From an uncultured Lachnospiraceae bacterium (GTDB lineage Bacteria > Bacillota > Clostridia > Lachnospirales > Lachnospiraceae): 42,253 nt of DNA. Positions 3,981 through 41,923 of the stretch are shown here, piece by piece. The position numbers and the translations under genes were made by a program. The stretch covers positions 1 to 42,253 of the forward strand of contig CANSTU010000022.1 in assembly GCA_947650005.1 (NCBI GenBank), read 5' to 3'. Position 1 is the stretch's first letter. Every line of letters begins with the position of its first letter. The notes beneath the pieces are model-generated. The model was not told the origin of the DNA and searched no databases. It saw only the letters and a list, made by a program, of their open reading frames with translations.

Positions 3981-4064
3981 CCCCCTGGTCCGCTTCAGCG
4001 GACATCAGTTCCATAGTTTAGAAACGGAGTTTCAAATGCTCCTCCATTCCGCCGCAGGCATCAC
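3981..4064 (-). repeat. Two stem-loop/ribosome-binding-site cassettes in the khpA leader
   Basis: Between rpsP and khpA are two units of the recurring leader cassette. Unit 1 (4038-4064) reads, in the mRNA sense, TGATGCC-TGC-GGCGGAATGG then GAGGAGC. Unit 2 (3981-4010) has a perfect stem GTCCGC/GCGGAC with a 4-nt loop followed by AGGGGG, which is the khpA ribosome-binding site. A small GAAAC/GTTTC hairpin (4021-4033) lies between them. The layout closely resembles the plsX leader at 41846-41904. Confidence 0.55.
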
Positions 4065-4074
4065 ATCGGGCCCT

Positions 4075-4320
4075 TTATTTCTCAATGCCTGCCAGCTTGA
4101 AGATTTTGCTCACCACTTCCGTGGGCTGGGCGCCGTTATTCAGCCATTTCTTAGCCAATTCTTCATTCACCTTGAACTCGCTGGGATCCTTGGTCGGATC
4201 ATAGGTACCGATCTCTTCGATGAATCTTCCGTCCCTGGGGGATCTGGAATCCGCCACGATGATCCTGTAGAAAGGAGCCTTCTTCTGTCCCATTCTTCTC
4301 AGTCTGATTTTTACTGCCAT
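4075..4320 (-). CDS. rpsP: 30S ribosomal protein S16
   Basis: An 81-residue protein starting [20 protein letters not shown], the unmistakable S16 N-terminus, with the usual [19 protein letters not shown] segment. It binds 16S rRNA in the 30S body and stabilises assembly. A strong GGAGG ribosome-binding site precedes the ATG. It lies 44 nt after ffh and before khpA in the conserved order. Confidence 0.97.
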
Positions 4321-4364
4321 TTTTCCTTACCTCCGTAATCATTTCATTTTCTAAATATTATTTA

Positions 4365-5717
4365 TCAAAAAGGAAGTCTGAACCTGCCTTTTTTTCCTCC
4401 AAAACCCCCCAGCATGCCGGGAAGCTGCTTCATCATCTTCTGGCTTTGTTCGAACTGCTTGATGAAGCGGTTTACCACACTGATGTCTACGCCGGCCCCT
4501 CTGGCGATCCGATGCTTTCTGCTGGGATTTAACAGCTTCGGGTTACGACGCTCCGCGGGCGTCATGGAGAGGACTACCGCCTCCATACGGGCAAGCTGTT
4601 TCTCGTCTACCATGGATTCCAGGTCTGCGCCCTTCGCCCCGAGTCCGGGTATCATACCGAGGATACCGGATAGGCCGCCCATGTTGCGCATCTGCTTCAT
4701 GCTTTCCAGGTAATCTTCAAAATCGAATTTCCCCTTCTTCATGCGTGAAGCCATTTCTTTTTCTTTATCCGCATCCAGATTTAAATTGGCCTGCGCCTTA
4801 TCGATCAGGGTGAGCACGTCCCCCATACCGAGGATACGTCCGGCCATCCGGTCAGGATAGAACTGCTCCAGATCGGAAAGCTTTTCACCCATACCAACGT
4901 AGAGAATGGGCTTGCCGGTCACTGCTTTTACAGAAAGCGCCGCCCCGCCCCGGGTATCCCCGTCCATCTTAGAAAGGATGACGCCGTCCACGCCCACCTT
5001 CTCGTCAAATTCTTTTGCAACGTTCACCGCATCTTGTCCTGTCATGGCATCCACCACCAGGAGCGTTTGGTGCACGGTGATTTCCTCTTTGATACCGATG
5101 AGCTCCTGCATCATCTCTTCATCGATATGCAGGCGTCCTGCCGTATCCAGGAGCACCACATTGTTTCCGTTTTTAGCAGCATGCTCCATTCCGGCTTTGG
5201 CAATATCTAAGGGCGCGTTCTTCGTGCCCATGGAAAAGGAATCCACACCCTGCTTGCGCGCGTTGATTTCCAGTTGCTCGATGGCTGCCGGCCGGTAAAC
5301 GTCACATGCCACCAAAAGAGGTTTCTTTCCCTTCAATTTAAATTTACCCGCCAGTTTTGCCGCTGTAGTGGTCTTACCGGCGCCCTGAAGGCCGCACATC
5401 ATGATCACAGTGGTGGATTTGCCAGGTTGCATGGCAATCTCCGTGGTTTCTGAACCCATGAGGGCGGTCATTTCCTCGTTTACAATTTTAACCACCATCT
5501 GGCCTGGATTCAGGCCGTTCATCACGTCCGCGCCCACTGCCCGCTCTTCCACTGACTTCACGAATTGTTTTACTACGCGGAAATTGACGTCCGCTTCCAA
5601 GAGCGCCATCCTGACTTCCTTCAGCGCTGCCTTGACGTCCGCCTCCGTGAGGCGACCCTTTCCGCGGAGATTCTTAAACACATTCTGCAGTTTATCGGTC
5701 AAACTTTCAAATGCCAT
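4365..5717 (-). CDS. ffh: Signal recognition particle GTPase Ffh (SRP54)
   Basis: Full-length 450-residue Ffh. It has the N domain, then the NG GTPase with P-loop GLQGAGKTTTAAKLA, DTAGRLH and SKMDGDTRGGAAL, and a methionine-rich M domain that binds 4.5S RNA and signal peptides (for example FIKQFEQSQKMMKQLPGM near the C-terminus). It targets nascent membrane and secreted proteins together with FtsY. The start is taken as the ATG at 5717 (MAFESLTDKLQ), the family's normal N-terminus, with GGGAG just upstream. An in-frame ATG 30 nt earlier would overlap ylxM. It begins 7 nt after ylxM. Confidence 0.96.
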   Translation of the reverse strand: MAFESLTDKLQNVFKNLRGKGRLTEADVKAALKEVRMALLEADVNFRVVKQFVKSVEERAVGADVMNGLNPGQMVVKIVNEEMTALMGSETTEIAMQPGKSTTVIMMCGLQGAGKTTTAAKLAGKFKLKGKKPLLVACDVYRPAAIEQLEINARKQGVDSFSMGTKNAPLDIAKAGMEHAAKNGNNVVLLDTAGRLHIDEEMMQELIGIKEEITVHQTLLVVDAMTGQDAVNVAKEFDEKVGVDGVILSKMDGDTRGGAALSVKAVTGKPILYVGMGEKLSDLEQFYPDRMAGRILGMGDVLTLIDKAQANLNLDADKEKEMASRMKKGKFDFEDYLESMKQMRNMGGLSGILGMIPGLGAKGADLESMVDEKQLARMEAVVLSMTPAERRNPKLLNPSRKHRIARGAGVDISVVNRFIKQFEQSQKMMKQLPGMLGGFGGKKGRFRLPF

Positions 5718-5724
5718 ATGCTCC

Positions 5725-6039
5725 CTATAGCTCCTCCCTGATTTCATCGGCCAGCCGCCGGATCTCTTCCTGTTGTGCGATCTGTCCGATTCGTTCCAGT
5801 TTCTTGCTTATCCTGCCGAACCGTTCCATCAGATGAAGTTTGTTCTCATATTCCTCCAACGCCCTGTCGCATCGCCTGATCAGGTCATGTACGCCCTGCC
5901 TGCTGATGCCCGCGATCTCGGCGATCTCGCTGAGAGACATATCGTTGAGGACAACGTCTTCATAGATCCTGCGCTGATGTTCTGTGAGGAGCGTCCCATA
6001 AAAATCATACAGGAGGCCCTGTTCCACTATTCTTTCCAT
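5725..6039 (-). CDS. ylxM: YlxM-family putative DNA-binding protein
   Basis: A 104-residue helix-turn-helix protein with the sigma-70 region-4-like segment LSEIAEIAGISRQGVHDLIRR (about residues 35-55), followed by a helical tail. It is the usual partner gene directly upstream of ffh in Firmicutes and may modulate SRP gene expression or function. It is the first gene after the promoter at 6093-6121. Confidence 0.93.
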   Translation of the reverse strand: MERIVEQGLLYDFYGTLLTEHQRRIYEDVVLNDMSLSEIAEIAGISRQGVHDLIRRCDRALEEYENKLHLMERFGRISKKLERIGQIAQQEEIRRLADEIREEL

Positions 6040-6092
6040 AATCGTTTCTATGTCCGCTCATTTTTGTGGCGCACTGCCGCGCTGCAAAGAGT

Positions 6093-6121
6093 ATGTTACT
6101 ATAAAAGAGATGTTGTGTCAA
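6093..6121 (-). promoter_or_regulatory. Sigma-A promoter of the ylxM-ffh-rpsP-khpA-rimM-trmD operon
   Basis: In the minus sense: TTGACA, a 17-bp spacer, then TAACAT. The -35 is perfect and the -10 has one mismatch. The start site would fall near 6086, leaving a leader of about 45 nt before ylxM. Having its own strong promoter explains how this block works when separated from ftsY by the polysaccharide island. Confidence 0.8.
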
Positions 6122-6186
6122 GTATTTATTCTTTACAAACCGTGCTCTGGAAAAGGCAGCTGGTTGATAATTCGATCTATATTTGA

Positions 6187-6855
6187 CTAGTCCTTCCAAA
6201 TGCCGCTTTCCTGCATTCGGGTTCTTCGCACGGTTCCATCCCGTAGAAATTTGATCCAATCGACCTCATCCATATGGCGGACTATAGGACATTTCCGACA
6301 TTTGTATTCAAGCGGTAATTTCTTATCTTCGTACTGATAGCATTTCAGATTGACAACGTTCTCTTTTTCTTCCGCTTGGGAAGACAACAATATTTTGGGA
6401 TAGGGCAGATGTTCGAATTTTTCCACAATGGCATCTTCCACATCTGGGCCGGCATTCAGTATCACCCTGATGTTATCATAACGGATTCTTTTCTTTCGGC
6501 GTTCCCAGCAGTCTCTGGCTTCAGCAAAGGAATTATAATGCATAAAATATAAACGGATATCTCCATATGCCCCGTGAATAATCCCTGAAGGATACGCCAG
6601 ATCGTTTTTTTCTTCCTCCACAGTCCCGTTCAGATACTTTTTCAGATGAAAACAGAATAAAATAAAGTCTTCATTCGTCATATACAGATTAATGGTCGGC
6701 GAAGAAAATCTTGCATGCATTCTTTTGTATAACACACCTCCGATACAATCCCTGGAAACGATTGTGGGAACATCCTTTATCATGATCCTATACGGAAGTG
6801 TGTAGATCGTTCTGCATAGAGTGCGTACGAAATCGGCTGTTTTCATCAAATCCAA
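6187..6855 (-). CDS. DUF1919 family protein, likely polysaccharide-associated transferase
   Basis: A 222-residue protein with the DUF1919 pattern: an HARFSSPTINLYMTNEDFI segment (about residues 48-66), then YPSGII and FMHYNSFAEARDCWERRKKRI. DUF1919 genes are typically found in capsule and exopolysaccharide loci and are presumed to modify or transfer sugars; the reaction is not established. It is the last gene of the island, 8 nt after the membrane protein gene. AAGGAG sits 4 nt before a TTG at 6855; the alternative ATG at 6846 has poor spacing, so the TTG is preferred slightly. No clear terminator follows it before the ylxM promoter. Confidence 0.8.
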   Translation of the reverse strand: MDLMKTADFVRTLCRTIYTLPYRIMIKDVPTIVSRDCIGGVLYKRMHARFSSPTINLYMTNEDFILFCFHLKKYLNGTVEEEKNDLAYPSGIIHGAYGDIRLYFMHYNSFAEARDCWERRKKRIRYDNIRVILNAGPDVEDAIVEKFEHLPYPKILLSSQAEEKENVVNLKCYQYEDKKLPLEYKCRKCPIVRHMDEVDWIKFLRDGTVRRTRMQESGIWKD

Positions 6856-6863
6856 TATACTCC

Positions 6864-9236
6864 TTACCCAATCCCTAAACTGTACGGCGCAGTCGGTTCC
6901 TGCCTAAAATAATAACAGACAAAATCATCGTCTTCGTAGTAGATATTCATTTCATATGGATAGAGCTGTGCAAAACGCTGACACCATTCATAGGCCTTGG
7001 ATTCGAGAATGGTACGGCTCTCCAGCTGTGTATAAATCCACCAGCTGTTCGAAAAACGCATAATGTCCTCCTGCGCAGCCTCCTGGGAAATATTTGATGC
7101 ATCGATTTCAGGACATCGGCTGGCAGAAGTATCATATTGATCTTTTTCCAATGCCAGCCAGGGCGGGCCGCTGAAAAAGTGATTCTGCGCATAACGTATG
7201 GGCCTTTTCTCCACATAGATAAAGACATACTCCGTGGGCAGCATATAAGTTTCATCCGTGCTGCGTTCCAGAAAAGACAGCAACTCTTCATGCCATCCAT
7301 ACAGAATCGTCTGATACATCTCATCTGTAGGCGAAACGATTGTATAAGTATAACGCGGCAGAGTCTCGATAATGGAATTGGTCACCATAACCACCGAATT
7401 GTAACGTGTCAGCTCATAGTACAAATATCCATGGTAACAGCCCAGGAGTATGGTTGAGGCGCAAATTCCTATTACACTGAGAAGGGTCAATATCTGCAGA
7501 AACGCTTCCCGGCACAAAAGGGCCAGCAGGGAAAACAGCATGTCAACGGGCATAAAGATCACTGCAATCGTTAGGATATGGATGCTGGAACAGAGGCGGA
7601 CACCATCAACCAGCTGCGGGAGCCCGATACTCTGTGCATCGTAGAATGCCATATATAGGAAGGAGGCAAATATCATCGGCATATATCCGTCAAAGCATTT
7701 CTTGTCAATCCGTCTTTTCAGACAGATCCCCCAAAGCGCACAAAACAGGCGATACACAAGCCACAGCAATATAGCAAACACCGTAACCGTCACAATCTGT
7801 TTCGCCCTTTCGGTTCCATAAATGAGCGTATACCCAGACCGATAAACGTTTCTGATGATCCCCATGCACAGGCCTGCTGCCTTTGTTGGCACTTCCGAAA
7901 TTTTTTCCGCAAATGTCCGGGAAGCCTTTTCTTCCTGTCCCACGAAAGCCGTATCCTCATCCTTCTCCTGCTTCTCTTCCAACGGCATCTCTTCCGGATG
8001 AGCTCCCTCCGGCGCCATTCCTTCGGAAGGCCCTTCCTGTCCCTCCTCAATACCCATGGACGTGTTGATAATGTTCATAGCCCATCCAATCGACCCCTGG
8101 AATTCGATTCCTGATACATAAGCTCCTGCCATGGGGGCGGCCGCAATCAGGACACCGCATATGGCGGATATGACCAAAGGCAGAAAATGCCCTTTGGTAA
8201 AAATCTTTTTCAGAGAAAACAGTGCAAAGGATACGCACAGGAAAAAGGCCATAATAGCAGGATAAAAATGAGACGCTATGGAAGCCGACAGGGACATGGT
8301 AAAAACCAGAAGGTTTTCATCCCAATACAGCCGGAATCGTTTCTTCCCATGATCTGGCCCGCTTCGGGATGCATTCAAATAGCGTATCATGTATAAAGCG
8401 CATAAAAACTGTGTATGCAGGCCGAATTCTTGCGGAAGGGTCCATTGAAGCCGCGACATACTCGCCACGGCATTATGGCACTTCAAATCCAAAATCAAAA
8501 ACAGAACAAGGACAAATAGCGATGTATAACGCGTATGAAAAACCTCCCGGGCCAGGCTGTAGGCAGACAAAAGGAAAACGGCCGTATGAATTCCCTGTAA
8601 AAACAAGAGGATACTGTAAACCTTGATATCTAACAGCGCATACATCCCATAAATGAAGCAATGCATTCCCTCCGGATAGATGCCAGCGGAAAATATTTTT
8701 CCTTCCATCAGGCCATAGATCCAGGAATGGTGGGTATATAAATCACCAAACCCATAGGAACAATCCTGAAAAGCCCCATAGGAAAAATAAATCATCCCAT
8801 AGATGAGAATCACGAAAAGAAGCAGATATTCCCCAAAATGGGGCCGTATCTCTTTCCAAATCCGTCTCAGCTGTCCTTTCACCCATCCTGCCGCATCCGC
8901 AAACAGAAAAGATTTTATGCCATAGGTCCCCAACAACAGGCCCTGTATCTTTTTTTGTTCTTCCCGGCCAAAATGAATCCCTTTCAGAAGGTTCCATAAA
9001 AACAGGCCATAAAAAAGGATAACCACGACCCATCTGTTTAAAATATGAAAAAGCCCCAAAGAAAGAACAACCGTATTGACGATGACCACCTGTGCGGTAG
9101 CGCAGAAGCCAAATCGGAATAATTTAGATTTTCCGCGCAAATACCTTCTGAAGACGACAGACGGCCACACAAACATGAGAAACAGATATCCGAACAATAC
9201 TTTTCCATATTCAACCAGCCAATAGAATGTAATCAT
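6864..9236 (-). CDS. Large polytopic membrane protein, GT-C-like, polysaccharide island
   Basis: A 790-residue protein with many hydrophobic segments in the first 600 residues and a soluble C-terminal domain of about 170 residues. An early loop (about residues 165-195) has GDLYTHHSWIYG and YPEGMH, resembling the acidic, His-bearing first loop of GT-C glycosyltransferases and related DUF6541-type membrane proteins. A hydrophilic Glu/Pro/Gly-rich insert (about residues 395-440) interrupts the membrane part. In context it could transfer a sugar from a polyprenyl-phosphate donor, for example the one made by the DPM-like GT2 at 10537. Enzyme activity is inferred; the membrane character is plain. 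Confidence 0.7.
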   Translation of the reverse strand: MITFYWLVEYGKVLFGYLFLMFVWPSVVFRRYLRGKSKLFRFGFCATAQVVIVNTVVLSLGLFHILNRWVVVILFYGLFLWNLLKGIHFGREEQKKIQGLLLGTYGIKSFLFADAAGWVKGQLRRIWKEIRPHFGEYLLLFVILIYGMIYFSYGAFQDCSYGFGDLYTHHSWIYGLMEGKIFSAGIYPEGMHCFIYGMYALLDIKVYSILLFLQGIHTAVFLLSAYSLAREVFHTRYTSLFVLVLFLILDLKCHNAVASMSRLQWTLPQEFGLHTQFLCALYMIRYLNASRSGPDHGKKRFRLYWDENLLVFTMSLSASIASHFYPAIMAFFLCVSFALFSLKKIFTKGHFLPLVISAICGVLIAAAPMAGAYVSGIEFQGSIGWAMNIINTSMGIEEGQEGPSEGMAPEGAHPEEMPLEEKQEKDEDTAFVGQEEKASRTFAEKISEVPTKAAGLCMGIIRNVYRSGYTLIYGTERAKQIVTVTVFAILLWLVYRLFCALWGICLKRRIDKKCFDGYMPMIFASFLYMAFYDAQSIGLPQLVDGVRLCSSIHILTIAVIFMPVDMLFSLLALLCREAFLQILTLLSVIGICASTILLGCYHGYLYYELTRYNSVVMVTNSIIETLPRYTYTIVSPTDEMYQTILYGWHEELLSFLERSTDETYMLPTEYVFIYVEKRPIRYAQNHFFSGPPWLALEKDQYDTSASRCPEIDASNISQEAAQEDIMRFSNSWWIYTQLESRTILESKAYEWCQRFAQLYPYEMNIYYEDDDFVCYYFRQEPTAPYSLGIG

Positions 9237-9263
9237 CCCGTCTCTTCCTCTTCTCTTCGCGCT

Positions 9264-10553
9264 TCAAAACCTGCCAAGCGAAACCCTTTCTCCAGCTCCC
9301 TGATTCGCGAAACGAAGAATCCTCCCATCGCGTTTCCGCTTCAGCTCCAGAAACAGTTCTCCAGGTCCTTTTATTCCTTCCGGATGCGGTATTGCCACCT
9401 GCAATTGGATCTTTTTCCCGCTACGCCATTTTCGGACGTCCGTATCTACGCGGACAGAGTATCTTTGCCCGCTTCCTTCTTCCACAAGAAGAAAACATTC
9501 AGCCGGTTCACACAGGGATGCAAACCCACAGTTCTCCACCGCGATCAGCAGCCTGCCACCGGAAAGGGATTTCAGATCACGGATGACAAAGCGGTATCCA
9601 AGGTGGCGGCCCAGATACTCGTATCCGCTGAGCCCCTTCCAACAGTCCGGACGGCTTACCGTCTCTTTTTTCCAGTAATCCAGCTGTTCGGGCTGATAGG
9701 CGCTGTTTAAATAGCTCAAATGCATCTTTTCCATGTCTTCTGCCGCCTGTACATAGCTGATCAGACGTTCTCCGGCCAGAACTTCTCCGCCATTCGGCAC
9801 GCCGTCCATATGGGCGTCCTGCCACGTGAGCTCTTCCCCGCGGCTCCAGCTGTTGGTTTCTCCGGCTTCCCGTCTGCCTAGCATACTATACGTTCCCAAA
9901 TCCGTTAGCGAACCGAAAATGCCGTCATTAAACAGGGCCAGCTTCTCTTCAGGGATCGTTGTGTTCGGGCTGCCAATGATTCCACGCCACCAAGATGGAG
10001 TACGCACCGCCAGATAACAGCAGCCCTCGGTCACAGCGAACAATGTTTCTGCCAGTCTGGCCGGATAATGTCCTGTCAGAAATTTAGAACCATGCATCTC
10101 TCCCCAGTTACCCACAAAAATCCCTTGTAGGACTAGGATATGATCCCGATACGCCCGGATGACAGCCCCCAGTTGTTCCATATGCCTTTTTACCAAACGC
10201 GCAGACGATGGTTCCCGTTCCAAACCATGCCCCGTCCTATCGTAGGCAAAACGAAGAATCAGCTGCTTTCCATTCTCCTGAAAAAAACGCAGAATATCCG
10301 TAATCGCCGCAAGCCCTTCCGATGAAATTTCGCTGGTTTGAAAAAAACCGATATCGATCAGCGCTAAAGCCAGTTCTTCTTGGTCAAAGAGGAAAATGGA
10401 TTTGCTCATTTCTTCCCGTTCAGCGCACATCCACTCCTGTACGGAAAAATAATAGACATGATACCACCCGCACCCCGGATTAGGCATCGATTCGCTGCTT
10501 TCCCTAAATTCAGCCTTTTCCAACCTGATTCTGCCGCTAAATCCCTTCCACAT
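9264..10553 (-). CDS. DUF4874/DUF4832 family protein, soluble paralogue
   Basis: A 429-residue protein resembling DUF4874 plus DUF4832, predicted TIM-barrel-like domains seen in surface-polysaccharide loci. Characteristic stretches are PNPGCGWYHVY near residue 25, LILRFAYDRTG near 98 and GIFVGNWGEMHG near 145. The same blocks occur in the protein at 31271, so the two are paralogues. This copy lacks the N-terminal membrane anchor of the other. Catalysis (glycoside-hydrolase or lyase-like) is possible but unproven. It overlaps the upstream GT2 by 17 nt, indicating an operon. Confidence 0.75.
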   Translation of the reverse strand: MWKGFSGRIRLEKAEFRESSESMPNPGCGWYHVYYFSVQEWMCAEREEMSKSIFLFDQEELALALIDIGFFQTSEISSEGLAAITDILRFFQENGKQLILRFAYDRTGHGLEREPSSARLVKRHMEQLGAVIRAYRDHILVLQGIFVGNWGEMHGSKFLTGHYPARLAETLFAVTEGCCYLAVRTPSWWRGIIGSPNTTIPEEKLALFNDGIFGSLTDLGTYSMLGRREAGETNSWSRGEELTWQDAHMDGVPNGGEVLAGERLISYVQAAEDMEKMHLSYLNSAYQPEQLDYWKKETVSRPDCWKGLSGYEYLGRHLGYRFVIRDLKSLSGGRLLIAVENCGFASLCEPAECFLLVEEGSGQRYSVRVDTDVRKWRSGKKIQLQVAIPHPEGIKGPGELFLELKRKRDGRILRFANQGAGERVSLGRF

Positions 10554-11316: not shown

Positions 11317-11317
11317 A

Positions 11318-12533
11318 TCAGCCTCCTGTTCCCAGCAGCAGCAACAGCTTCCCCAGTCCCTGATCCTGCGATATTTTCTTTTTTTGCGCTCTTTGACCTA
11401 ATTCCTCCCTTTTCTTTTCATCATTCAGCAATACGATGATACTATCGGCAATGGATCGGGGCGTCAACTCACAGATTATACCCCCCCCCCATATCCTCAC
11501 CGATAGCTTCTTTACTGCCGCTGTAATTGGAAACAATGATCGGGCATCCCAGCGTCTGCGCCTCCTGTACCGCTATGGACTGACCCTCATATCTGACCGC
11601 ATGGACATAGATATCGGTTTGAGCATAGTAAGGATAGGGATTGGCGACGGCGCCCAGCAGCAGAAAATCCTTCTGCAGCCCCAGCGCGGCGATCTTTTTT
11701 TCCAGGGCAGCCCGCTGATCGCCCTCCCCCAGCACATACCATCTGACTTTATATCCTGCCTCCTTCAGCAGCCGCATCGCTTCCATTGCAATATCATATC
11801 CTTTCTGCCAGGTCAGCCTTCCCACGGTCAGCAGGCGCATGCCTCCATATTCGTCTGAAAAACCGCCCGGCTGCTTTGCCTGCCTGCGGATGGATTCCTG
11901 GTCAATGATATTTGGAAATACATCCGTTCTGTCCCGATACTGCGGATAGACTGCCTGAAAGCGTTCCACAGTATCCTTCGAGACCCCAAAAATCCTGTCA
12001 AAACGACTCCAGCAGTCCTGATCCATCCCTCTGGTGTATCCGGATTCTTCGTAATTGATATGGATAAAAGCCGCCTTTCTGCGCGCTTTTACGTAATCCG
12101 CCACATAATAGGCGGAACCTCCCTCCAGCCAGGCAATTGCCAGGTCAAAAGTCGTATCAAATCTCCGGCTTCCCTCTGCCATCATACGCCACATCAATTT
12201 GTCAATCTGAATTCTTTTCCGCTTGACCATGGATGCAAAAGTCAGGAGTATGTAACGCAGTTTTCCAAACCAATTTCCGTTTCGGAAGAAGGCCTTTGTC
12301 ACCCTTCTTCGCATCTGTTTTCTTCCTTTTGAAGACAGGACTGATTCGCTGCTGAATTCTGCATTCAACAGATGGACATGGGAGGGCAGCTGGCCAATCA
12401 TTTCCCCCTGTCCCATCAACACGTACAGATAGACTTGATACTCCGTGGCATCCCACCTTTTTAATAATTCCAGCAACGCTTTTTCCGCACCTGCGCCGCC
12501 CATGGTATTAATTACAAACAGGATTTTCTTCAT
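11318..12533 (-). CDS. GT4 glycosyltransferase, frameshifted at a G10 tract (candidate phase-variable, OFF)
   Basis: A GT-B enzyme starting MKKILFVINTMGGAGAEKAL (ATG at 12533), with a C-terminal EGQSIAVQE donor-site motif (EX7E) and LTVGRLTWQKGYD. The frame as read stops at 11469 just after GEDMGGG, because ten G residues (11481-11490) shift the frame. With nine G the frame continues as GGGIICELTPRSIADSI and ends at 11318 after 404 residues, giving the normal closing helices of GT4 enzymes. That stop falls one base before the next gene's ATG, which supports the nine-G form as the functional one. A longer upstream start would overlap the 12508 gene more. Sequencing error in the homopolymer is the main alternative. 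Confidence 0.82.
11481..11490 (-). repeat. Poly-G(10) homopolymer tract inside the GT4 gene
   Basis: Ten consecutive C on the plus strand (G in the coding sense), the only such run I see in the window. Loss of one base restores the GT4 frame. It encodes the glycines before the last strand/helix block of the GT-B fold. Confidence 0.95.
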
Positions 12534-12939: not shown

Positions 12940-12965
12940 ACTGTTTTCTCTCCTTTCCTGCTGAT

Positions 12966-16212: not shown

Positions 16213-18081
16213 TCATTCAAATATATAAACGTACCTGTCAGGTTTCATGTTTAAAGACACCATCTCATTCTCCACCGTAAGCAGATATATGTTGTCTTCC
16301 AGCCGCTGCCAGCTTCCGCCTTCCATACTTACGATCTCCTCATCCTTTGTCCTTAAGATAAACCAAGCCGGCCCGCGCAGATCGGAAACCATGAGGTCAA
16401 TCCGCTCCCCGCTCCGATTTTCCGTGTACTTTAAGGTATAGAAATTTCGGATCCTCTCATCGCACTGTGAGGCAGTCGTTCCGGCAAAATTACGGAAAGG
16501 TTTCAAATAAAACTTCGTATTCCATTTAAAATCATGGGAAATATCCTTCCAGGTCTCATTCCCTTCTCCGGAATAAGCCACTTCGTTCATATCCACCAGC
16601 ACACTGGAATATCCCAGCGCTGTTTCCACGCTTCTCAGCCGGAAATCCTCCCGGTAGGTATACTTAAATCCATCTGTTAAAATACTTTGTTTCGTCACAT
16701 CCTCCGAAGCAAATCCTATGATCTCATTATCCCCGGTATAATCCGTGATTACAGTCCGCACTGCTGACAGCCATTCTTCCTGTAAAACGGCATCCACTTC
16801 TTCCTGGGCCATATTCCCTGTATAAAGGGATGTAAACCGGTACTCAGGCAGCGCTTCTTCCATAAATCTTCTGTCCTCTGACAGTTTTTGATCAAGAGGC
16901 GTATCCGATACGCTGATACAGGACAGGCCAGCTTCCGCCTTCTGTTCATTTAAAAGCTTCATATAGTGAACTAGCTGTTTTGGTTCCGGGAAACGATTGT
17001 CCTGATAATCAAACTGAGGCGCGATCATGCAGGACAGGCCCAGCTTATTCTGTTGATAGATGGATATTAAGTCAGGCCACACGATATCCCTGAACACCCC
17101 CTCCATGGGCTGGCCGTAGAGCCGTTCCATCTCTTCTTCATTTTCACTGGACAGGCCGGGATAGTTGGCAACGATCATGTTCTGCGCATTTATAACGGGA
17201 TAGATTTCATAATATTTCGTCTCCGTCATCATTGCGGATAAAAGGCCCAACCCCGTTACATCCTCCATGTATCCGCCGTTGACGGCAAACAGGCACCCCC
17301 ATTGTGCCTTTCCAAAGCTTCTGCGCCAGATAATGCCGGGACGCTCCTCCAATTGCACCGTTTCATCCTCCGGTATTCCCTTCATATAGGCCTTGGTTCC
17401 TGATCCTAAGATATACCAGGGAAAGGCAAGCTCCATGTCCTGTCGCTTCTCGTTTTCCTCTTCGTTCTGCGCCTGATAGATGATCTCTCCTCCAAAAAGA
17501 AATCCCTTGTAGAGGTGAATTCCCGCTACCGTTGTTTCCGCCGCCCTTATCTCTCGAATTCCCAGAAATTGCTGAAGCCGGCTGTTTCCTTCTATTATGG
17601 AGACATCCGGAAGATTACAGAAAACCAGATTGATTCCTTCCTTGACGTATCCTTCCAAACGATCCAGTTCTTGTGTCTGCTCCCAGTCCATGTTCGCAGT
17701 ATCTAAAATCATCATCTCCGGTAAAGGCTGTCCGCCCTCCTTTTCGGCTTCATACTGCCAAAGGGATCCATAGGTATACAATTCCCGTCTTGTGTATGTG
17801 GCCCATGCCTGCACTACACCTCCAATCTTCTCTGTTTCGTTTCCAATATAAACAAGATTATCCTGAAAGGACGATTCCGTTCCTTGCGCGTTCTGATGGC
17901 CCACCGCCTCCTGCCCGGCTCCTAAAACATCCCCTCTTCCTGGAAGCGTTTCCTTATCTGCGACATAGGGGTTTATTTCAAACATATTCCAGGTTTCCAA
18001 GGCAACGTTAATAAACTGGAACAGAAAAAATACAACAGCCATAATCACCGTAATTGTAAAATAATTCCGGCGCGATATCAT
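16213..18081 (-). CDS. pelA: PelA-type protein (deacetylase-domain form, DUF2194-like), membrane-anchored
   Basis: A 622-residue protein with one N-terminal membrane helix (about residues 9-28) and an extracytoplasmic body. It occupies the pelA slot between pelE and pelF, matching the Gram-positive order pelD-E-A(DA)-F-G. The body begins with an alpha/beta segment containing MMILDTANMDW and continues with CMIAPQFDYQDNRF, which resembles the first metal-binding Asp region of polysaccharide deacetylases. I cannot find a clear His-x3-x4-His partner, so activity is uncertain. The likely role is partial de-N-acetylation or processing of the exported polymer. The ribosome-binding site GGGAGC comes from the leader cassette at 18087-18120. 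Confidence 0.75.
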   Translation of the reverse strand: MISRRNYFTITVIMAVVFFLFQFINVALETWNMFEINPYVADKETLPGRGDVLGAGQEAVGHQNAQGTESSFQDNLVYIGNETEKIGGVVQAWATYTRRELYTYGSLWQYEAEKEGGQPLPEMMILDTANMDWEQTQELDRLEGYVKEGINLVFCNLPDVSIIEGNSRLQQFLGIREIRAAETTVAGIHLYKGFLFGGEIIYQAQNEEENEKRQDMELAFPWYILGSGTKAYMKGIPEDETVQLEERPGIIWRRSFGKAQWGCLFAVNGGYMEDVTGLGLLSAMMTETKYYEIYPVINAQNMIVANYPGLSSENEEEMERLYGQPMEGVFRDIVWPDLISIYQQNKLGLSCMIAPQFDYQDNRFPEPKQLVHYMKLLNEQKAEAGLSCISVSDTPLDQKLSEDRRFMEEALPEYRFTSLYTGNMAQEEVDAVLQEEWLSAVRTVITDYTGDNEIIGFASEDVTKQSILTDGFKYTYREDFRLRSVETALGYSSVLVDMNEVAYSGEGNETWKDISHDFKWNTKFYLKPFRNFAGTTASQCDERIRNFYTLKYTENRSGERIDLMVSDLRGPAWFILRTKDEEIVSMEGGSWQRLEDNIYLLTVENEMVSLNMKPDRYVYIFE

Positions 18082-18086
18082 GTTTA

Positions 18087-18120
18087 GCTCCCATCTGCGC
18101 GCAAAGACGCACTCAAATCA
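18087..18120 (-). repeat. Stem-loop/ribosome-binding-site cassette before pelA
   Basis: A 34-bp copy of the recurring leader cassette. In the mRNA sense it opens TGATTTGAGTGCG, has a short imperfect stem, and closes GCAGATGGGAGC, five bases before the pelA ATG. Opening and closing sequences are almost identical to those before plsX and rnc, although pelA belongs to the polysaccharide island. Confidence 0.65.
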
Positions 18121-32734: not shown

Positions 32735-32790
32735 GAACGCCCCTCCCTTTTCTATTACTGCTAAAACAATTTCATCCAATATCCCCTGTT

Positions 32791-33666: not shown

Positions 33667-33760
33667 TCCGATTTCTCCTTTCCGCCCGATTTCGTTTTTC
33701 CATCCGCTTGCTTTCCTGCGTTGAAGAGCAAGCGGGAATTCCAGCCTAAAACGCTGCGCC

Positions 33761-34987: not shown

Positions 34988-35013
34988 AATAGCCTCCATT
35001 CTTGCCAAAACCT

Positions 35014-35955
35014 TTACTCCTGCTCTGATTTTACGTCAAAAAGGGCATTTACAAATTCATCTGCATTGAACTTCTGCAGATCCTCCATATCCTCTCCCAC
35101 ACCGATATACTTTACAGGCACATTCAGCTCGGATTGAATGGCCACAGCAATCCCGCCCTTAGCCGTACCGTCCATTTTGGTTAGGATAATTCCTGTCAAA
35201 TCCGCTACGCAACCAAATTCCCTGGCCTGCTGCAGGGCATTCTGCCCTGTAGTGGAATCCAGTACCACCAGGTTTTCCCGATGGGCCTCCGGGAATTCCC
35301 TGCTGATAATCCGATCCATTTTTTTCAGCTCTTCCATCAGGTTCTTTTTATTATGGAGCCTTCCAGCCGTATCGCACAGCAGCACATCCACATGCCTGGC
35401 CTTGGCCGCATTCACCGCATCGAATACCACACTGGCCGGGTCAGATCCTTCCGCCCCTCCGATCATATCCACACCAGCCCTGCTGGCCCAGCCCGCGAGC
35501 TGCTCCCCGGCAGCAGCCCGGAAAGTATCCGCTGCGGCAATTAAAACTTTACGCCCTTGCGCTTTCAGAATTCCCGCCAGTTTCCCCACGGAGGTAGTCT
35601 TACCCACGCCGTTCACACCGATCACCAGAATGATGGACTGCTTCTTCTCAAATTCATAGGCGGTCTCTCCCACAGCCATCTGTTCCCTAATGCTGTCGAT
35701 CAGAAGCTGTTTGCAGTCCGCCGGATCCTTGATATGCCGTTCCTTCACCTGCGCTTTCAAGCGCTCCAGGATATCCGAGGCAGCGTTGACGCCGATATCT
35801 CCCATGATAAGGATTTCCTCCAATTCTTCATAGAATTCGTCATCGATGGAAGAAAATCCGTTAAACACGGAATCAATGCCGTTTACAATATTATTCCTCG
35901 TTTTATTCAGGCCATCCTTCAACCTCGCAAAAAAGCCCTTCTTCTCCTCACTCAC
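35014..35955 (-). CDS. ftsY: Signal recognition particle receptor FtsY
   Basis: 313 residues with N and G domains of the SRP GTPase family: P-loop GVNGVGKTTSVGKLA, DTAGRLHNKKNL and TKMDGTAKGG. It docks Ffh-ribosome complexes at the membrane. It lacks a long acidic A domain, as is normal in Firmicutes. I chose the GTG at 35955 (VSEEKKGFFARLK), which has GGAG 6 nt upstream; the in-frame ATG at 35991 has no ribosome-binding site and would translate through a leader hairpin. Normally followed by ylxM-ffh; here that block is 29 kb away. Confidence 0.93.
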   Translation of the reverse strand: MSEEKKGFFARLKDGLNKTRNNIVNGIDSVFNGFSSIDDEFYEELEEILIMGDIGVNAASDILERLKAQVKERHIKDPADCKQLLIDSIREQMAVGETAYEFEKKQSIILVIGVNGVGKTTSVGKLAGILKAQGRKVLIAAADTFRAAAGEQLAGWASRAGVDMIGGAEGSDPASVVFDAVNAAKARHVDVLLCDTAGRLHNKKNLMEELKKMDRIISREFPEAHRENLVVLDSTTGQNALQQAREFGCVADLTGIILTKMDGTAKGGIAVAIQSELNVPVKYIGVGEDMEDLQKFNADEFVNALFDVKSEQE

Positions 35956-35961
35956 GCCAAA

Positions 35962-36052
35962 CTCCAATCCGCCTTGTTTAAGGCATTCCATTCAAGAGCA
36001 TGAAATCACAGATTTCATGTACTCCCCTATGCCTTCTTTAAGGCATTAATCA
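35962..36052 (-). repeat. Stem-loop leader cassettes between smc and ftsY
   Basis: Two cassette copies in the mRNA sense. The first (36021-36052) opens at TGATT, whose TGA is the smc stop codon, then has the stem ATGCCTT/AAGGCAT and ends GGGGAGT. The second (35962-35988) is GAATGCCTT-AAAC-AAGGCGG ending ATTGGAG, the ftsY ribosome-binding site. Between them lies a hairpin ATGAAATC/GATTTCAT (36000-36018) almost identical to one in the plsX leader (41905-41923). Confidence 0.55.
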
Positions 36053-39000
36053 GTTATCCAGTTCTTTGTCGATCAGGCTCACGCTGACCAGGGTGGAGAT
36101 TCCCTTTTCCTGCATTGTAATACCATACAGCCTGTCCGCCTTCTCCATGGTCCCTCTTCTGTGGGTAATGACGATGAATTGCGTATGTTTCGTCAGCTTA
36201 TGTAAATAACCCGCAAACCGTCCCACATTGCTGTCGTCCAGGGCCGCTTCGATCTCATCCAACAAACAGAAGGGAGATGGCTTCAGGTTCTGGATGGCAA
36301 ATAGAAGGGAGATGGCCGTAAGCGCCTTTTCTCCGCCGGAAAGCTGCATCATGTTCTGCAGCTTTTTTCCCGGCGGCTGGGCGATGATTCGAATTCCTGC
36401 CTCCAGGATATCTTCGTCTTCCATCAACTCCAGTGTTCCCTTTCCGCCGCCGAATAATTCCCGGAAAACCTTGTCAAATTCCTGTCCAATCTGGGCGAAT
36501 TTTTCCTTGAACTGCCTGCGCATGGCTTCATCCAGTTCCTTGATGACGCCCACCAGGGTCTCTTCCGCCGCCACCAGATCATCATGTTGGTTTTTCAGGA
36601 AAGTGAAGCGCTCCATCAGATTCTTATAATCCTCAATGGCATTTACGTTCACGTCCCCCAATTTCCGGATCTGATCCTTTAGGGAGGCGATTTCCTTCTT
36701 CATAGCGGCCAAATCCTGCATAGATTCATCCCGTAGGGCGGCGGCATCGCTCAGGGTGATTTCATATTCATCCCACATATAGTTAATCTGGGATTCCACG
36801 GATTCTTCCAGCTTTTCCCTCTGGGCATTCAGACGATAGACTTCCTTATCCAGTCCGGCCTGGCGGTCGGCAAGACTTTCCCGGTCTGCGAAGAAATTTT
36901 TCTGCTGCGCGGCCAGAAGTTCCTTTCTGGCCACATCCTCTTTCAATTTCTTTTCCCCGTCCGTCTGGCTCGTATGAGAGGCCAGGATGGTTTCCTGAAG
37001 GCTTTGGATGTCTTTCAGGCGGGTTTCTATTTCCTCCGCCCTTTGGTCTAATCCGGACTGAACTTCCTCCAGCTCCTGCGTGAATCTGTGAATTTCTCCT
37101 TCCACACGTTCCAGGTTGGTCTGCTCAAACCCCTGTTTCTGGCGGATTTTTTCCACCTCCACATCCCATTCCGCTACCCGGGCAGCCTGTCCGGCCTCCT
37201 CTTCCCGCAAGCCTTCCAATTCCTTCTCCGCTTCAGAAATTCGCTTCTTTACGTCCTCCTCCAGCTTTTCTGATGCTTCCAGCTGGCCGCGGATACGTTC
37301 TTTATCACTGTGGATTTCTTCCATTTGAGCCGCGATCTGCATCTGCTCCTTTTGCAGATCCTCAAATCCTTGGCCAGCCTTCTCGCGTTTCTCTCTGGCT
37401 GATGCCACATTCATTCTGGCCGTGTTCTGATGAATAAATTCCTGCTGGAGAGATGATTTTACCTGTTCCAGCTCCATACGCAGGCTGTTTCGGCGCTTTT
37501 TGGTCTGCTCGATCTCGTCTAAAAGGGTATCCACCTGCCGCAGGGTATCCTTGACCGCCTTTTCCAGTTCCTCAATCTCCCGCCTTCTTCCCAACAGGTT
37601 GCTGCTGTTGCGGAAGGCGCCTCCGCTGATGGCGCCTCCTGGCGTAAAAAGTTCTCCTTCCAGCGTGACCATGCGCAGGCAGTAACCGTATTTTCTGGCG
37701 ATTCGTACCGCTTGATCCACATTTTCAACCACCAGGATCCGTCCCAGTAGGGAGGAGGCCACATCCCGATATCGTTCGTCCACCCGCACCAGGGTATCCG
37801 CCAGGCCCAGAACACCTTGTTCTGACAGAACTTCCCGCTGGCGGAACTCCTGCCTGTTTCGGATGCTGGTCAATGGCAGAAATGTGGCCCGTCCCGCCTT
37901 ATTGGTTTTCAGGAAACCGATCATCCGCTTAGCAGTCTCTTCGTTATCCGTGACGATATTCTGGATGCTGCCGCCCAGGGCGGTTTCAATGGCCACTTCA
38001 TATCTGGCATCTACCTTCAAAAGATCCGCTACCACACCGATAATTCCCGGATTGCCCTCCTTTTGCTCCATGACCCGTTTTATGCTTCCACCATATCCCT
38101 CATAGCGTTCTGTGAGATTGGTCAAAGCCTCCAGCTTGGATTTTTTCTGGTGATAGATAACCTGGGTGTCCCGCAGCTTCTGATCCTTTGCGGCCATTTC
38201 ATCCCGGATTTCATTCAGTCTTTCTTCGGTCAGCGATTGGCTTTCGTTGAGCTTGGAAATATTGTCATTGATTCGTAGGAATTCCAGTTCCAGTTCCTTG
38301 ATGTTCTCTTCCTGCTGTGTTTCATCCGATTTCGCCCGCAGCAGTCTGGAATTCAGTTCCGCTTTTCTGATCTGAACCTGCTCCATCATGGTGTCATAAC
38401 GGCCCATCCGGGATTTGATGGTGGCGCGCTCGTTCAATTCGTTAATGATCGTATTCTTGCCGCTTTCGATGTTGGCATTCAGTTCTTCTATCCTTGAAAG
38501 GACATCGGAAAGAAGGGCGGCTGCCTCTGACCGCACCGCCTCCAATTCACCCAGGCGTCCGTCAGTCTCCCTCTTTTCTTCCAGGATGCGATCCCGGTCT
38601 GCGCCCCGCTGGCCGATATCTGCTGAGAGAGCCTCCTTCCTGTTTTTCAGGTGCGCTTCATTCCCCTTTGCGGAATTGATCTGCTCCTTCAGGACATTGA
38701 TCTGTCCTTCCAGTTTTCCCTGCATGAGACCTGTATCAGCCAGAAAAGTACGGGCCTTCTCAATCCTACCGTCCAGTTGCTCGATCTCTGCCTGAACCCG
38801 TTCATATTCTTCTTTGATATGTTCATATTTTTGCGTGGTTTCCTGAAGCTCTTGCGAAGCGTTATCGTACTTTTGGCCGATTTCCGTAAGCTGTTCCCGC
38901 AGCCTGGTATTTTCCAGGAGGAATACATTTACGTCAAGCCCTTTTTGTTCCTCCTTCTTTTTCAAATAGATTCGGGCCTTTTCCGACTGTTTTTCAAGAG

Positions 39001-39610
39001 GGCCGACCTGCTTTTCCAGCTCGGCCAGAATGTCCCGTACGCGCAATAAGTTTTGCCGTTCTTCCTCCAGCTTCTTTACAGCCGTGTTCTTCCGTCTTTT
39101 GAATTTCACGATTCCGGCCGCCTCGTCGAATAACTCCCTACGTTCCTCCGGCTTTCCGCTGAGAATTTTATCGATCTGCCCCTGCCCGATGATGGAATAG
39201 CCTTCTTTACCGATACCGGTATCGTAAAATAATTCGTTCACATCCTTTAGGCGGCATGCCGTTCCGTTCAACAGGTATTCACTCTCTCCGGAACGGTAGA
39301 TCCGTCTGGCCACCGTGACTTCCTCATAATCGATGGCCAACTGATGATCGCTGTTGTCCAAAGTAATCGCCACGTAGGCATAGCTCATGGGTTTTTTCAG
39401 TTCCGTGCCTGAAAAGATCACATCCTGCATGGATGCGCCGCGTAGCTGTTTGATACGCTGTTCCCCCAAAACCCAGCGTACCGCGTCCGCCACGTTGCTT
39501 TTTCCGCTGCCGTTTGGCCCCACAATCCCGGTGATCCCGTTGTGGAACTGAAAATTAATCTTATTGGCAAAGGACTTGAAACCATGTATCTCTATACTCT
39601 TTAAATACAT
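36050..39610 (-). CDS. smc: Chromosome segregation ATPase SMC
   Basis: 1186 residues, the usual length. Walker [10 protein letters not shown] (31-39), a long coiled coil, a hinge around residues 510-670, a second coiled coil, signature [10 protein letters not shown] (1090-1099) and Walker [14 protein letters not shown]. With ScpA/ScpB it forms the bacterial condensin that organises and segregates the chromosome. The ATG directly abuts the rnc stop (TAAATG), so the two are translationally coupled. Confidence 0.97.
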
Positions 39611-40336
39611 TTATCTGCTTTCCTCTCCCTCCCAGATCCGTTCCTGACGCAGGGATAGAATGGTCTGATAGGCTGCCTGCTGTTCCGCCGCTTTTTTCGT
39701 CCTTCCTTTTCCCCTGCCTGCCGTCCTGCCATCCAATCGGGCTTCCACCAGAAATTGCTTATCGTGATCCGGCCCCTCCTCTCCCATCAGGACGTATTCA
39801 AATACGGTTCCGGGGATTGCCTGAATCATTTCCTGCAGAACGGTTTTACTATCATAGAAAAGAATTTTGTTCTCCAGATCCGTTAAAACAAAACGGTGGA
39901 TGAACGCATGTGCAGCCTCAAAACCACCGTCCAGATACAGGGCTCCGATCATCGCCTCCATAGCATCCGATGTGATGGACTCCCGTTCCCTGCCCCCAGT
40001 GGATTCCTCCCCACGTCCCAGCAGCATATATTTTCCCAGCTCCAGATCTCTGGCGCAATAGGCCAGCGCCGGTTCACAGACCATAGAAGAACGCAGCTTC
40101 GTCAGTTTTCCCTCCGGCATATCACGATTTGCATGGAACAGAAAATCGCTGGAAACCAGTTCCAGGACCGCATCGCCCAAAAACTCAAGCCGTTCATAGT
40201 TCTCTAATTTATTGATTTTCTGCTCGTTTGAATAAGAACTATGGGTCAATGCCTGCTGCAACAGCTTTTTATCATGAAACTGATACCCTATCCTTCTTTC
40301 CAATTCTTCCAGACTGTACTTCACATTTGCTCCCAT
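39611..40336 (-). CDS. rnc: Ribonuclease III
   Basis: 241 residues or slightly fewer: a catalytic endonuclease domain with the signature ERLEFLGDAVLEL (48-60) and the second acidic cluster ESITSDAMEAMIGALYLDGG, then a C-terminal dsRNA-binding domain ending in a GRGKGRTKKAAEQQAA stretch. It cleaves double-stranded RNA in rRNA precursors and mRNAs. The ATG at 40336 lies inside a leader cassette (ATGGGAGC); if GGGAGC is the ribosome-binding site, the true start would be the GTG at 40324. Tandem perfect hairpins in its leader are possible self-cleavage sites. Confidence 0.95.
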   Translation of the reverse strand: MGANVKYSLEELERRIGYQFHDKKLLQQALTHSSYSNEQKINKLENYERLEFLGDAVLELVSSDFLFHANRDMPEGKLTKLRSSMVCEPALAYCARDLELGKYMLLGRGEESTGGRERESITSDAMEAMIGALYLDGGFEAAHAFIHRFVLTDLENKILFYDSKTVLQEMIQAIPGTVFEYVLMGEEGPDHDKQFLVEARLDGRTAGRGKGRTKKAAEQQAAYQTILSLRQERIWEGEESR

Positions 40337-40498
40337 CCGCCCGCCTTCGCGGGCATCTAAATCAAGGAGGTTGAAAGCGTACTTCTTTCAACCTTGCTCC
40401 CGTACGCCCGCTTTTGCGGGCATTTAAATCAAGGAGGTTGAAAGCGTACTTCTTTCAACCTTGCTCCCATCTGCACGCTTTCACAGGCGCACAAATCA
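40329..40498 (-). repeat. Tandem stem-loop array (67-bp period) in the rnc leader
   Basis: Three 36-bp cassettes start exactly 67 bp apart (plus-strand starts 40329, 40396 and 40463). The outermost is the most diverged. The first two have perfect CCCGC/GCGGG stems with 4-5-nt loops. The 31-bp spacers between cassettes are identical and contain a second perfect 10-bp stem, AGGTTGAAAG/CTTTCAACCT, with a 7-nt loop. The array therefore forms at least four strong hairpins between the acpP terminator and rnc. Confidence 0.85.
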
Positions 40499-40534
40499 AA
40501 AAGCCCTACCCGGGTTTCCCCGCTACGGGCTTTT
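40498..40534 (-). terminator. Rho-independent terminator after acpP
   Basis: In the minus sense AAAAGCCC pairs with GGGCTTTTT, with an inner CGGG/CCCG stem, ending in five T. It should end most plsX-acpP transcripts, so rnc-smc-ftsY needs readthrough or a promoter that I cannot locate in the short leader. Confidence 0.8.
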
Positions 40535-40568
40535 CGGATATGCTGCCTTCTTTCTGTTTCTATAATAA

Positions 40569-40799
40569 TTAATGAGAACTGCTTTTAATCAGCTCCATCG
40601 CCTCTCCGACCGTATGAATCTTTTCCGCGTTCTCGGCCGTAATCTCGATTTCAAAGGTTTCTTCAATTCCCATTACAATCTGGTAAAGATCCAACGAGTC
40701 CGCACACAGATCGTCCACAAAAGTGGTTTCCTCCGTGATTTCCTTGGGATCCACACACAATACTTCAGCAATGATTGTCCTCAGCTTATCAAGCTCCAT
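40569..40799 (-). CDS. acpP: Acyl carrier protein
   Basis: 76 residues, acidic, with the phosphopantetheine serine in CADSLDLYQIVMGIEE (about residues 32-47). The Tyr-Gln after DSLDL replaces the more usual Val-Glu but keeps the helix. It carries growing acyl chains in fatty acid synthesis and donates acyl groups to PlsX. It lies 27 nt after plsX. Confidence 0.95.
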   Translation of the reverse strand: MELDKLRTIIAEVLCVDPKEITEETTFVDDLCADSLDLYQIVMGIEETFEIEITAENAEKIHTVGEAMELIKSSSH

Positions 40800-40826
40800 A
40801 TCATTCGTCCTCTCCCTAACCTATGC

Positions 40827-41834
40827 TTATATCCCGGAAATCGATTTCTGAATTTTACCGATGATATCCTGCTCTCGGAAAGCCACGCACTGCAGGATGG
40901 TATTTTTAATTTCAATCGACTTGGAACTCCCATGGGTTTTCACCACAAGCCCCTTTAAACCCAGAAGTGGCGCACCGCCGTATTGTTCCAGGTCAAATTT
41001 CTTTAATGTCTGCTTCAAAGCAGGCTTAACCAGAAGAGCGCCGATCTTGCTTCTCAGACTCGACATCATCCCGCCCTTCACCATCTTGATGAGCGTACCG
41101 CCTACCCCTTCATATAGCTTCAAAATCACATTGCCCACAAAGGCTTCGCAGACGATCACATCCACCTCGCCCTTTGGGATATCCCTGGCTTCTACGCTTC
41201 CCACAAAGTTAATATCGCTGCATTCCTTCAGCAAGGGAAACGTTTCCTTCACCAGCGCATTGCCCTTTTTTTCCTCAGCACCGATGTTTACGATTCCCAC
41301 CCGTGGGTTTGGAACGCCCATCACGTATTTCATATAGATGGATCCCATCCTGGCAAACTGCACCAGCTGGGAAGGCCTGGAATCCACATTTGCCCCGCAA
41401 TCAATCAATAAGGCTGCTCCCTTTTCCGTGGGAATCAACGGAGCCAGAGGAGGACGTTCCACGCCCTTACTGCGCCCCACAATCACCTGGCCACCCACCA
41501 GCACTGCTCCCGTACTCCCCGCGGATACAAAGGCATCGCACGTGCCCTCCCGCACCATGTACAGACCTTTGACAATGGAAGAATCCTTCTTCCCTTTAAT
41601 CGCCGCCACAGGTGGTTCCGCCATAGCGATGATCTGGGTGGCGTTCACCACCTCGATCTGTTCAGGCGGATAGGTATATTGTGCCAATTCAGTTCTGATA
41701 GCCTCTTCTTTTCCCACCAGGAAGGCCTTGATCTTCTTTTCACTGCAGACGGCATCCACCGTTCCTTTGACTATTTCCGCGGGCGCATTGTCTCCTCCCA
41801 TAGCATCCACTGCCACATTCACATATTCTGCCAT
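40827..41834 (-). CDS. plsX: Phosphate acyltransferase PlsX
   Basis: 335 residues starting MAEYVNVAVDAMGGDNAP at the ATG at 41834 (GAGGGAAG just upstream), with the family blocks SAGSTGAVLVGG, RPPLAPLIPT and DCGANVDSRP. It makes acyl-phosphate from acyl-ACP for the first step of phospholipid synthesis. The usual upstream rpmF/yceD genes are not present; instead there is a structured leader and a strong promoter. Confidence 0.96.
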   Translation of the reverse strand: MAEYVNVAVDAMGGDNAPAEIVKGTVDAVCSEKKIKAFLVGKEEAIRTELAQYTYPPEQIEVVNATQIIAMAEPPVAAIKGKKDSSIVKGLYMVREGTCDAFVSAGSTGAVLVGGQVIVGRSKGVERPPLAPLIPTEKGAALLIDCGANVDSRPSQLVQFARMGSIYMKYVMGVPNPRVGIVNIGAEEKKGNALVKETFPLLKECSDINFVGSVEARDIPKGEVDVIVCEAFVGNVILKLYEGVGGTLIKMVKGGMMSSLRSKIGALLVKPALKQTLKKFDLEQYGGAPLLGLKGLVVKTHGSSKSIEIKNTILQCVAFREQDIIGKIQKSISGI

Positions 41835-41845
41835 TCTTCCCTCTA

Positions 41846-41923
41846 GCTCCCATCTGTCCGCTTCGGCGGGCATTCAAATCAGGCTAAGGAAACTCTCGTT
41901 TCCTGTGAAATCGAAGATTTCAC
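41846..41923 (-). repeat. Stem-loop cassette and accessory hairpins in the plsX leader
   Basis: The 36-bp cassette at 41846-41881 opens TGATTTGAATGCCCGC in the mRNA sense and closes CAGATGGGAGC, 11 nt before the plsX start. Upstream in the transcript lie AGGAAAC/GTTTCCT (41887-41904) and GTGAAATC/GATTTCAC (41905-41923) hairpins; the latter recurs in the ftsY leader. Confidence 0.65.

Follow-up and report, generated by a model that had tools for sequence, protein, structure and literature searches.

A tandem-prone hairpin repeat that probably supplies new Shine-Dalgarno sequences at start codons in Lachnospiraceae

Results

Hairpin repeats before start codons in an Eisenbergiella-like contig

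The window analyzed here is the whole of contig CANSTU010000022.1 (42,253 nucleotides (nt); C22 in our numbering) from the 3.59-Mb, 138-contig genome of an uncultured Lachnospiraceae bacterium (GCA_947650005.1, hereafter G000). On the minus strand of this window, copies of a short repeat composed of hairpins and closing with a Shine-Dalgarno sequence lie before rnc, plsX, ftsY and a DUF2194 gene (Table 1). G000 was taken as an Eisenbergiella-like Lachnospiraceae because, among the best 80 relatives, its SMC protein is nearest to those of Eisenbergiella porci (79%) and E. tayi (78%). An earlier note, made from this DNA alone, had described nine recurring cassettes of a stem-loop and a ribosome-binding site in front of unrelated genes. 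That observation was partly confirmed and its interpretation partly supported, and the repeat family proved larger than described there.

The window was scanned, with filters off and at E up to 10, using a covariance model (R1) trained on 38 units of G000, some of which lie inside the test stretches used below. Five of the nine cassettes scored strongly, in part by construction because the training set includes them. Two others, in the ftsY leader, scored weakly; these were accepted as diverged members because an array of tandem units also stands between smc and ftsY in the sister genome G007 (SMC 93% identical to that of G000), where the A+T hairpin is unchanged and the G+C stem differs. The remaining two, in the khpA leader, were not members of the family: 3987-4004 scored 9.7 bits (E 3.8), and 4038 gave no R1 match at E up to 10. 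The khpA leader (window 3930-4120) contains two small hairpins and is nearly identical in G007; it is thus a conserved leader for which family membership is not established.

As had been proposed, the TGA stop codon of smc is part of one copy, the unit at 36052. The idea that the closing string acts as the ribosome-binding site fits the distances at rnc, ftsY and the gene at 18081 and fails at plsX, where a conserved native GAGGGAA follows the unit next to the start, so that the unit is not the ribosome site there. The leader assigned to pelA does contain a strong unit, but its gene matched only DUF2194 (Pfam, E up to 1e-5). Finally, the TGAAATC/GATTTCA hairpins, thought merely to accompany the cassettes, are real and form part of the element, as its A+T-rich partner class.

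Table 1 Units and associated hairpins of the repeat family in the window
Feature	Position	Strand	Evidence
rnc leader, unit 1 of three-unit array; just past a terminator-like hairpin and T run	40462..40498	-	R1 45.9 bits; absent from G007
A+T-rich hairpin GGTTGAAAG..CTTTCAACC, rnc array, between units 1 and 2	40436..40460	-	Sequence; hairpin class covaries
rnc leader, unit 2	40395..40431	-	R1 48.5 bits
A+T-rich hairpin, rnc array, between units 2 and 3	40369..40393	-	Sequence
rnc leader, last unit; GGGAG 5 nt before GTG (40324, minus)	40328..40364	-	R1 51.3 bits; RNase III domains (Pfam)
plsX leader unit, upstream of native GAGGGAA	41845..41881	-	R1 52.3 bits; G007 site empty; Pfam FA_synthesis
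Hairpin AGGAAAC..GTTTCCT, inserted with plsX unit	41887..41904	-	Inside insertion absent from G007
Hairpin TGAAATC..GATTTCA, inserted with plsX unit	41906..41922	-	Inside insertion absent from G007
Single unit, GGGAG 6 nt before ATG (18081) of 622-aa DUF2194 gene	18086..18120	-	R1 39.1 bits; Pfam
smc-ftsY, diverged first unit; TGA is the smc stop	36020..36052	-	R1 16.2 bits, E 0.13; G007 array at same place
A+T-rich hairpin CATGAAATC..GATTTCATG, ftsY leader	35999..36019	-	Same hairpin in G007
Diverged last unit; GGAG 6 nt before GTG (35955), taken as ftsY start	35960..35994	-	R1 17.6 bits, E 0.06; orthologous array; SRP54 domains (Pfam)

The repeat unit comprises two covarying hairpins

In the mRNA sense, the core of the unit reads TGATTTG-NN-TGCCCGC-TAAA-GCGGGCA-GATGGGAGCA. 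In many cases an A+T-rich hairpin (xTGAAA..TTTCAx; for example, GGTTGAAAG..CTTTCAACC) and a C/T-rich spacer (80% C+T over the last 5 nt) come before it, giving the order A+T-rich hairpin, pyrimidine spacer, TGATTTG, 7-bp G+C hairpin and AGATGGGAGCA. Units occur singly or as arrays, with a period of 61-68 bp in 28 of 35 adjacent core pairs. A hairpin lies directly 5′ of the first unit in 67 of 124 start-bearing arrays, and 56 of these 67 hairpins are of the TGAA/TGGAA type. The pattern GATTTNNNTGCCCGCN{2,8}GCGGGC has 30 exact matches in G000, against 0 for the backward pattern.

Both hairpins of the unit covary. Of the G+C stem cells in 68 units (66 distinct rows) from G000 and other genera, 93.3% are paired, and the two central pairs of the stem switch between C-G and G-C (36/26) and between C-G and U-A (40/22). 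The stem holds 58 double-change cells against 24.5 after shuffling, a count reached by 0 of 500 shuffles; these compensatory changes bear out the earlier suggestion of a conserved structure. For the A+T hairpin, 64 copies selected via a TGAAA/TTTCA core were compared at the two pairs immediately outside it; the bases there are complementary in 58 and 60 copies, compared with 34 and 33 after shuffling (maximum 45). Across genera, the TGATTT and AGATGGGAG flanks and the outer and closing stem pairs are largely conserved, and the middle pairs vary. Folded singly, the rnc, plsX and ftsY leaders are more stable than their shuffles (z -3.2, -2.5 and -3.2, respectively), and the 18086 unit alone shows no gain (z 0.60). 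Within arrays, 49% of the 35 adjacent stem-loop pairs are identical, as against 5% of random pairs.

Other hairpin modules were also seen in the leaders. In G000, a second repeated module stands, whole or in part, upstream of the units in leaders L002, L017, L021, L024 and L028; it consists of a TTTGAAAC..GTTTCAAAC hairpin, CTCTTTATTGGTGGCAGT, a ATCGCAGGC..GCCTGCGAT-type hairpin and ATGCAGGGGTATAAG. G007 leaders carry yet another module (GGCGGCAGAATGAGAGG).

Units lie immediately before the start codons of unrelated genes

In 400 kb of G000 (contigs C1-C4) together with the window, R1 gave 53 matches with E below 0.1, 48 of them outside the window. With genes called by an open reading frame (ORF)/hexamer script, 51 of these 53 units are co-directional with the next gene, compared with 48% of random intergenic points, and no unit falls well within a called gene (beyond 130 nt from its 5′ end and 60 nt from its 3′ end). 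At 34 of 45 array ends, an ORF of 50 codons or more begins within 14 nt, a strong bias against both nulls (0.147 for all intergenic points and 16% for co-directional ones) and the opposite of the even distribution that, according to the earlier note, would have refuted its reading. The start is located 2-5 nt past the match at 28 of the 45 ends, against a null of 0.046 for co-directional intergenic points. In a wider parse of G000 and other genomes, 124 of 161 arrays have a qualifying start, and the distance from GGAG to the start is 5-6 nt in 107 of the 124. From this spacing, the Shine-Dalgarno sequence of the unit is probably the site used.

G+C hairpins ending at -17 to -12 were counted in 25 of 311 genes of G000, in 6 of 1134 genes at 78 other Lachnospiraceae loci and in 0 of 32 genes at the E. 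porci and E. tayi loci, with a choice of starts that favors genes with good ribosome sites. The genes behind units are unrelated by Pfam, including rnc, plsX, ftsY, xseB, rpiB and genes of undecaprenyl-diphosphate synthase and dehydroquinase II types. The claim of a recurring module of a stem-loop and a Shine-Dalgarno sequence before unrelated genes is thereby supported.

Orthologous sites with and without a unit

We queried 52 G000 arrays against G007, of which the stretches were mostly picked around matches, and obtained 12 places with both flanks; after two chance hits in coding sequence were dropped and plsX and ftsY added, the final set again held 12 loci, classified by eye. A unit is present in both genomes at 4 of these, G007 has no unit at 5 (plsX, rnc, xseB and two more), and it has a different or diverged hairpin at 3. 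At xseB, the stop and start of G007 read as overlapping (GTGA); the G000 sequence is longer there by about 100 bp, at the end of which stand a new site and, behind the unit, an ATG. At plsX, G000 has about 82 bp extra relative to G007.

The rplP leader of genome G325 reads GGAAGGGA, then a unit, then ATG. Elsewhere, 25 of 29 other rplP loci have GAAGGGAG shortly before the start, which in 8 is exactly AAGGAAGGGAGCGATAAATAATG; in G325, a motif resembling a ribosome site flanks the unit on both sides. Left flanks of the A+T type were compared as well: after 32 of 56 were set aside as unit-like, the remaining 24 resemble ribosome sites, with a median Shine-Dalgarno signal of -5.8 versus -3.5 at -70 to -50 of genes (p 2e-5). 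Occupied and empty orthologous sites, in G000 versus G007 and at rplP of G325, suggest a mobile module, one of the two origins (mobile or recruited) that the earlier note had envisaged.

The family is patchily distributed across Lachnospiraceae

Genome searches scored at most 150 candidates per genome for G000, its genus and selected carriers, and at most 17 in the family and phylum samples; the copy numbers are therefore lower bounds, and weak carriers may escape. R1 found at least 160 matches in G000 at E up to 1 (150 of 3925 candidates scored), and extrapolation from the 400 kb puts its copy number at about 430. In the genus, 8 of 13 genomes have matches: at least 154 in G000 and at least 148 in G007, and then 10, 7, 1, 1, 1 and 1. 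The distribution across Lachnospiraceae is patchy, with at least 17 of 397 sampled genomes, in 15 of 334 genera, carrying the family; among 398 genomes of the phylum sample, G000 was the only match. Five carriers from other genera, searched more fully, have at least 11 to 46 matches at E up to 0.01, with a unit before a start codon in most loci inspected. One pattern searched against viral contigs gave 0 exact matches.

In the sister genome, contig G007:C173 (L191) ends within the ftsY leader array, so that repeats of this kind may fragment assemblies and hide copies. Apart from the repeat, the window has a run of ten C on the plus strand (ten G on the minus strand) at about 11481-11490, within a minus-strand ORF and close to its 3′ end; the run is a possible slippage site.

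Discussion

Proposed origin of the arrays

We consider it likely that the family is a high-copy, tandem-prone interspersed repeat that sits preferentially at translation initiation regions, supplies them with a new Shine-Dalgarno sequence and is apparently mobile. The case is made by the family itself, its structure, position and orientation, its presence or absence between sister species and the homogeneity of its arrays, all established by comparing sequences. Copies appear to have spread through insertion, and tolerance, rather than regulation, would account for where they are found.

A plausible course of events is as follows. A copy would land between the upstream stop codon or the native Shine-Dalgarno sequence and the start codon, and each unit would be transcribed as two hairpins ending in AGATGGGAGCA, the ribosome-binding site that takes over. 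Because the unit brings its own Shine-Dalgarno sequence, the gene would stay expressed and the insertion would be tolerated. Insertion would again leave a Shine-Dalgarno sequence and a start at the end of the unit, so that further units could add in tandem, and the arrays would then homogenize. As for the means of spreading, our guess is recombination at the microhomology of ribosome sites and starts, or else some enzyme.

Several results weigh against this reading. Two of five covariation measures are not clearly above shuffles: stem pairs with any double change number 4 versus 3.8 (366 of 500 shuffles), and further stem pair types 11 versus 9.7 (49 of 500). No qualifying start follows 37 of the 161 parsed arrays, which by eye are chance hits, internal units, contig ends, short ORFs and upstream insertions, or 11 of the 45 array ends of the less selected sample. 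The Shine-Dalgarno signal of the left flanks is moderate (-5.8, compared with -5.3 for shuffled flanks (p 0.03) and -7.4 at gene starts). An apparently retained native site lies downstream of the unit at plsX and at a few loci of G007, and insertion is thus not strictly between site and start. The sites of the units are also predicted to be less accessible than those of other genes, with an unpaired fraction of 0.41 for 83 array-end sites and 0.57 for the sites of 147 control genes; the same comparison does not support the earlier proposal that the hairpin keeps the ribosome site unpaired, which was rejected. Within arrays, the predicted fraction is higher in last units (0.41) than in internal ones (0.30). 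As to an enzyme, the Y1 transposase family PF01797 had 0 matches in G000, G007, G325, G360 and G099, other enzymes not having been searched for; it is present in G275, G356, G002 and G004. Because it is missing from G000 and G007, the two genomes with the highest copy numbers, an element derived from IS200/605 or RAYT was rejected.

Alternative explanations

A more ambitious version, which we hold only tentatively, is a mobile element that homes to ribosome-binding sites. It would recognize the Shine-Dalgarno sequence and start, insert in one orientation, mask the old site and install its own, all without a known transposase; every landing would regenerate the target, so that arrays build up. 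The element would thereby have rewired the starts of about one-tenth of genes, a figure based on 34 start-bearing array ends per 331 called genes.

A regulatory RNA leader, recruited to many genes and bound by a shared protein or RNase, is unlikely, though somewhat less so than the explanations that follow. Here, TGATTT and AGATGGGAG would serve for recognition and the hairpins as a scaffold, in agreement with flanks that stay similar across genera while the middle stem pairs covary, with the 4 of 12 loci that keep a unit, its stem sequence changed where alignments show it, and with predicted structures that can mask the site. However, no pathway is common to the ten genes tested, each of them in the window or behind a unit; the unit is not common to the sister species at 8 of the 12 loci; and 380 of 397 family genomes have no match at E<=0.001 among the 17 candidates, at most, scored in each. 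Pairing of the pyrimidine spacer with the site is likewise no greater than composition predicts: in G000 and in other genera, its energies equal those expected from composition and permutation, a result that led us to reject the idea that the spacer specifically masks the site of its own unit.

We regard as improbable an element like the mycobacterial interspersed repetitive units (MIRU), tolerated because translation of an internal ORF is coupled to that of the gene behind it. MIRU characteristically insert at start codons (PMC12548453), and the xseB site of G007 reads as an overlapping stop and start. Copies beginning with ATGAAAGA (L217 and L228 in G099, and L233) contain an ORF of 21-23 codons (MKD..) that runs up to or into the start codon downstream. 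Against this, no one frame connects the start of the A+T hairpin with TGATTT: 81 units divide 33/19/29 among the three frames, leaving out 101 more in which no A+T hairpin start was recognizable. On these counts a conserved upstream ORF was rejected, and a coupled leader peptide is no general feature of the family.

Slightly less probable still is an element for RNA processing or stability within operons, acting by cleavage or protection, with the ribosome site a by-product. Its hairpins are strong, and most of the 53 copies are flanked on both sides by genes in their own direction, but such an element would not need a fixed spacing of 5-6 nt to the start codon. Chance hairpins near ribosome sites, over-read by eye, might be suspected from the two of nine reported sites that fail R1 and from the fold of the 18086 unit, and are refuted by the backward-pattern control, the covariation and the two positional nulls.

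Implications and comparison with known systems

If ribosome sites are indeed replaced in this way, the sister species would offer hundreds of natural before-and-after experiments on translation initiation, and the repeat would illustrate how a gene can take up an insertion at its most sensitive point almost without consequence. In practice, the repeat also bears on how genes are called and operons predicted in Eisenbergiella and the other Lachnospiraceae that carry it.

In titles and the beginnings of abstracts of the open-licence PMC literature, no description of the family was found, which is weak evidence of absence. Its covarying 5′ leaders are reminiscent of the structured leader RNAs in Rfam. 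A known Rfam family was rejected, however, as the window gave 0 matches at the gathering score and 11 of 30 loci gave 0 at E<=1, and the downstream genes are unrelated. REP and BIME palindromes, which are associated with the RAYT (Y1) transposase, and elements derived from IS200/605 are hairpin repeats that form tandem clusters at high copy number. The Lachnospiraceae family shares these features but lies at start codons, in genomes of which the two with the highest copy numbers have no Y1 transposase.

The BOX, RUP and SPRITE elements of pneumococci are small interspersed repeats as well, again in a Gram-positive host; they spread mainly in one burst of transposition and are over-represented between convergent genes (PMC3049150). 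The Lachnospiraceae repeat differs in lying almost exclusively before starts and in one orientation, co-directional with the next gene in nearly every case.

In behavior, the nearest analogue appears to be MIRU, compared here by description rather than by sequence. MIRU, too, occur as tandem copies. These short mycobacterial repeats are described as apparently mobile; they carry a coupled ORF, insert at start codons and are probably tolerated as gene expression is little affected (PMC12548453). The Lachnospiraceae family has the same character of a short interspersed repeat at start codons in the orientation of the gene. Whereas the internal ORF of MIRU is coupled at -4 nt, the frame is not kept here, a few copies excepted, and the unit instead carries a Shine-Dalgarno sequence behind covarying hairpins. 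As the coupled ORF, a defining feature of MIRU, is not general here, the Lachnospiraceae repeat is best described as an analogue of MIRU rather than a member of that family.

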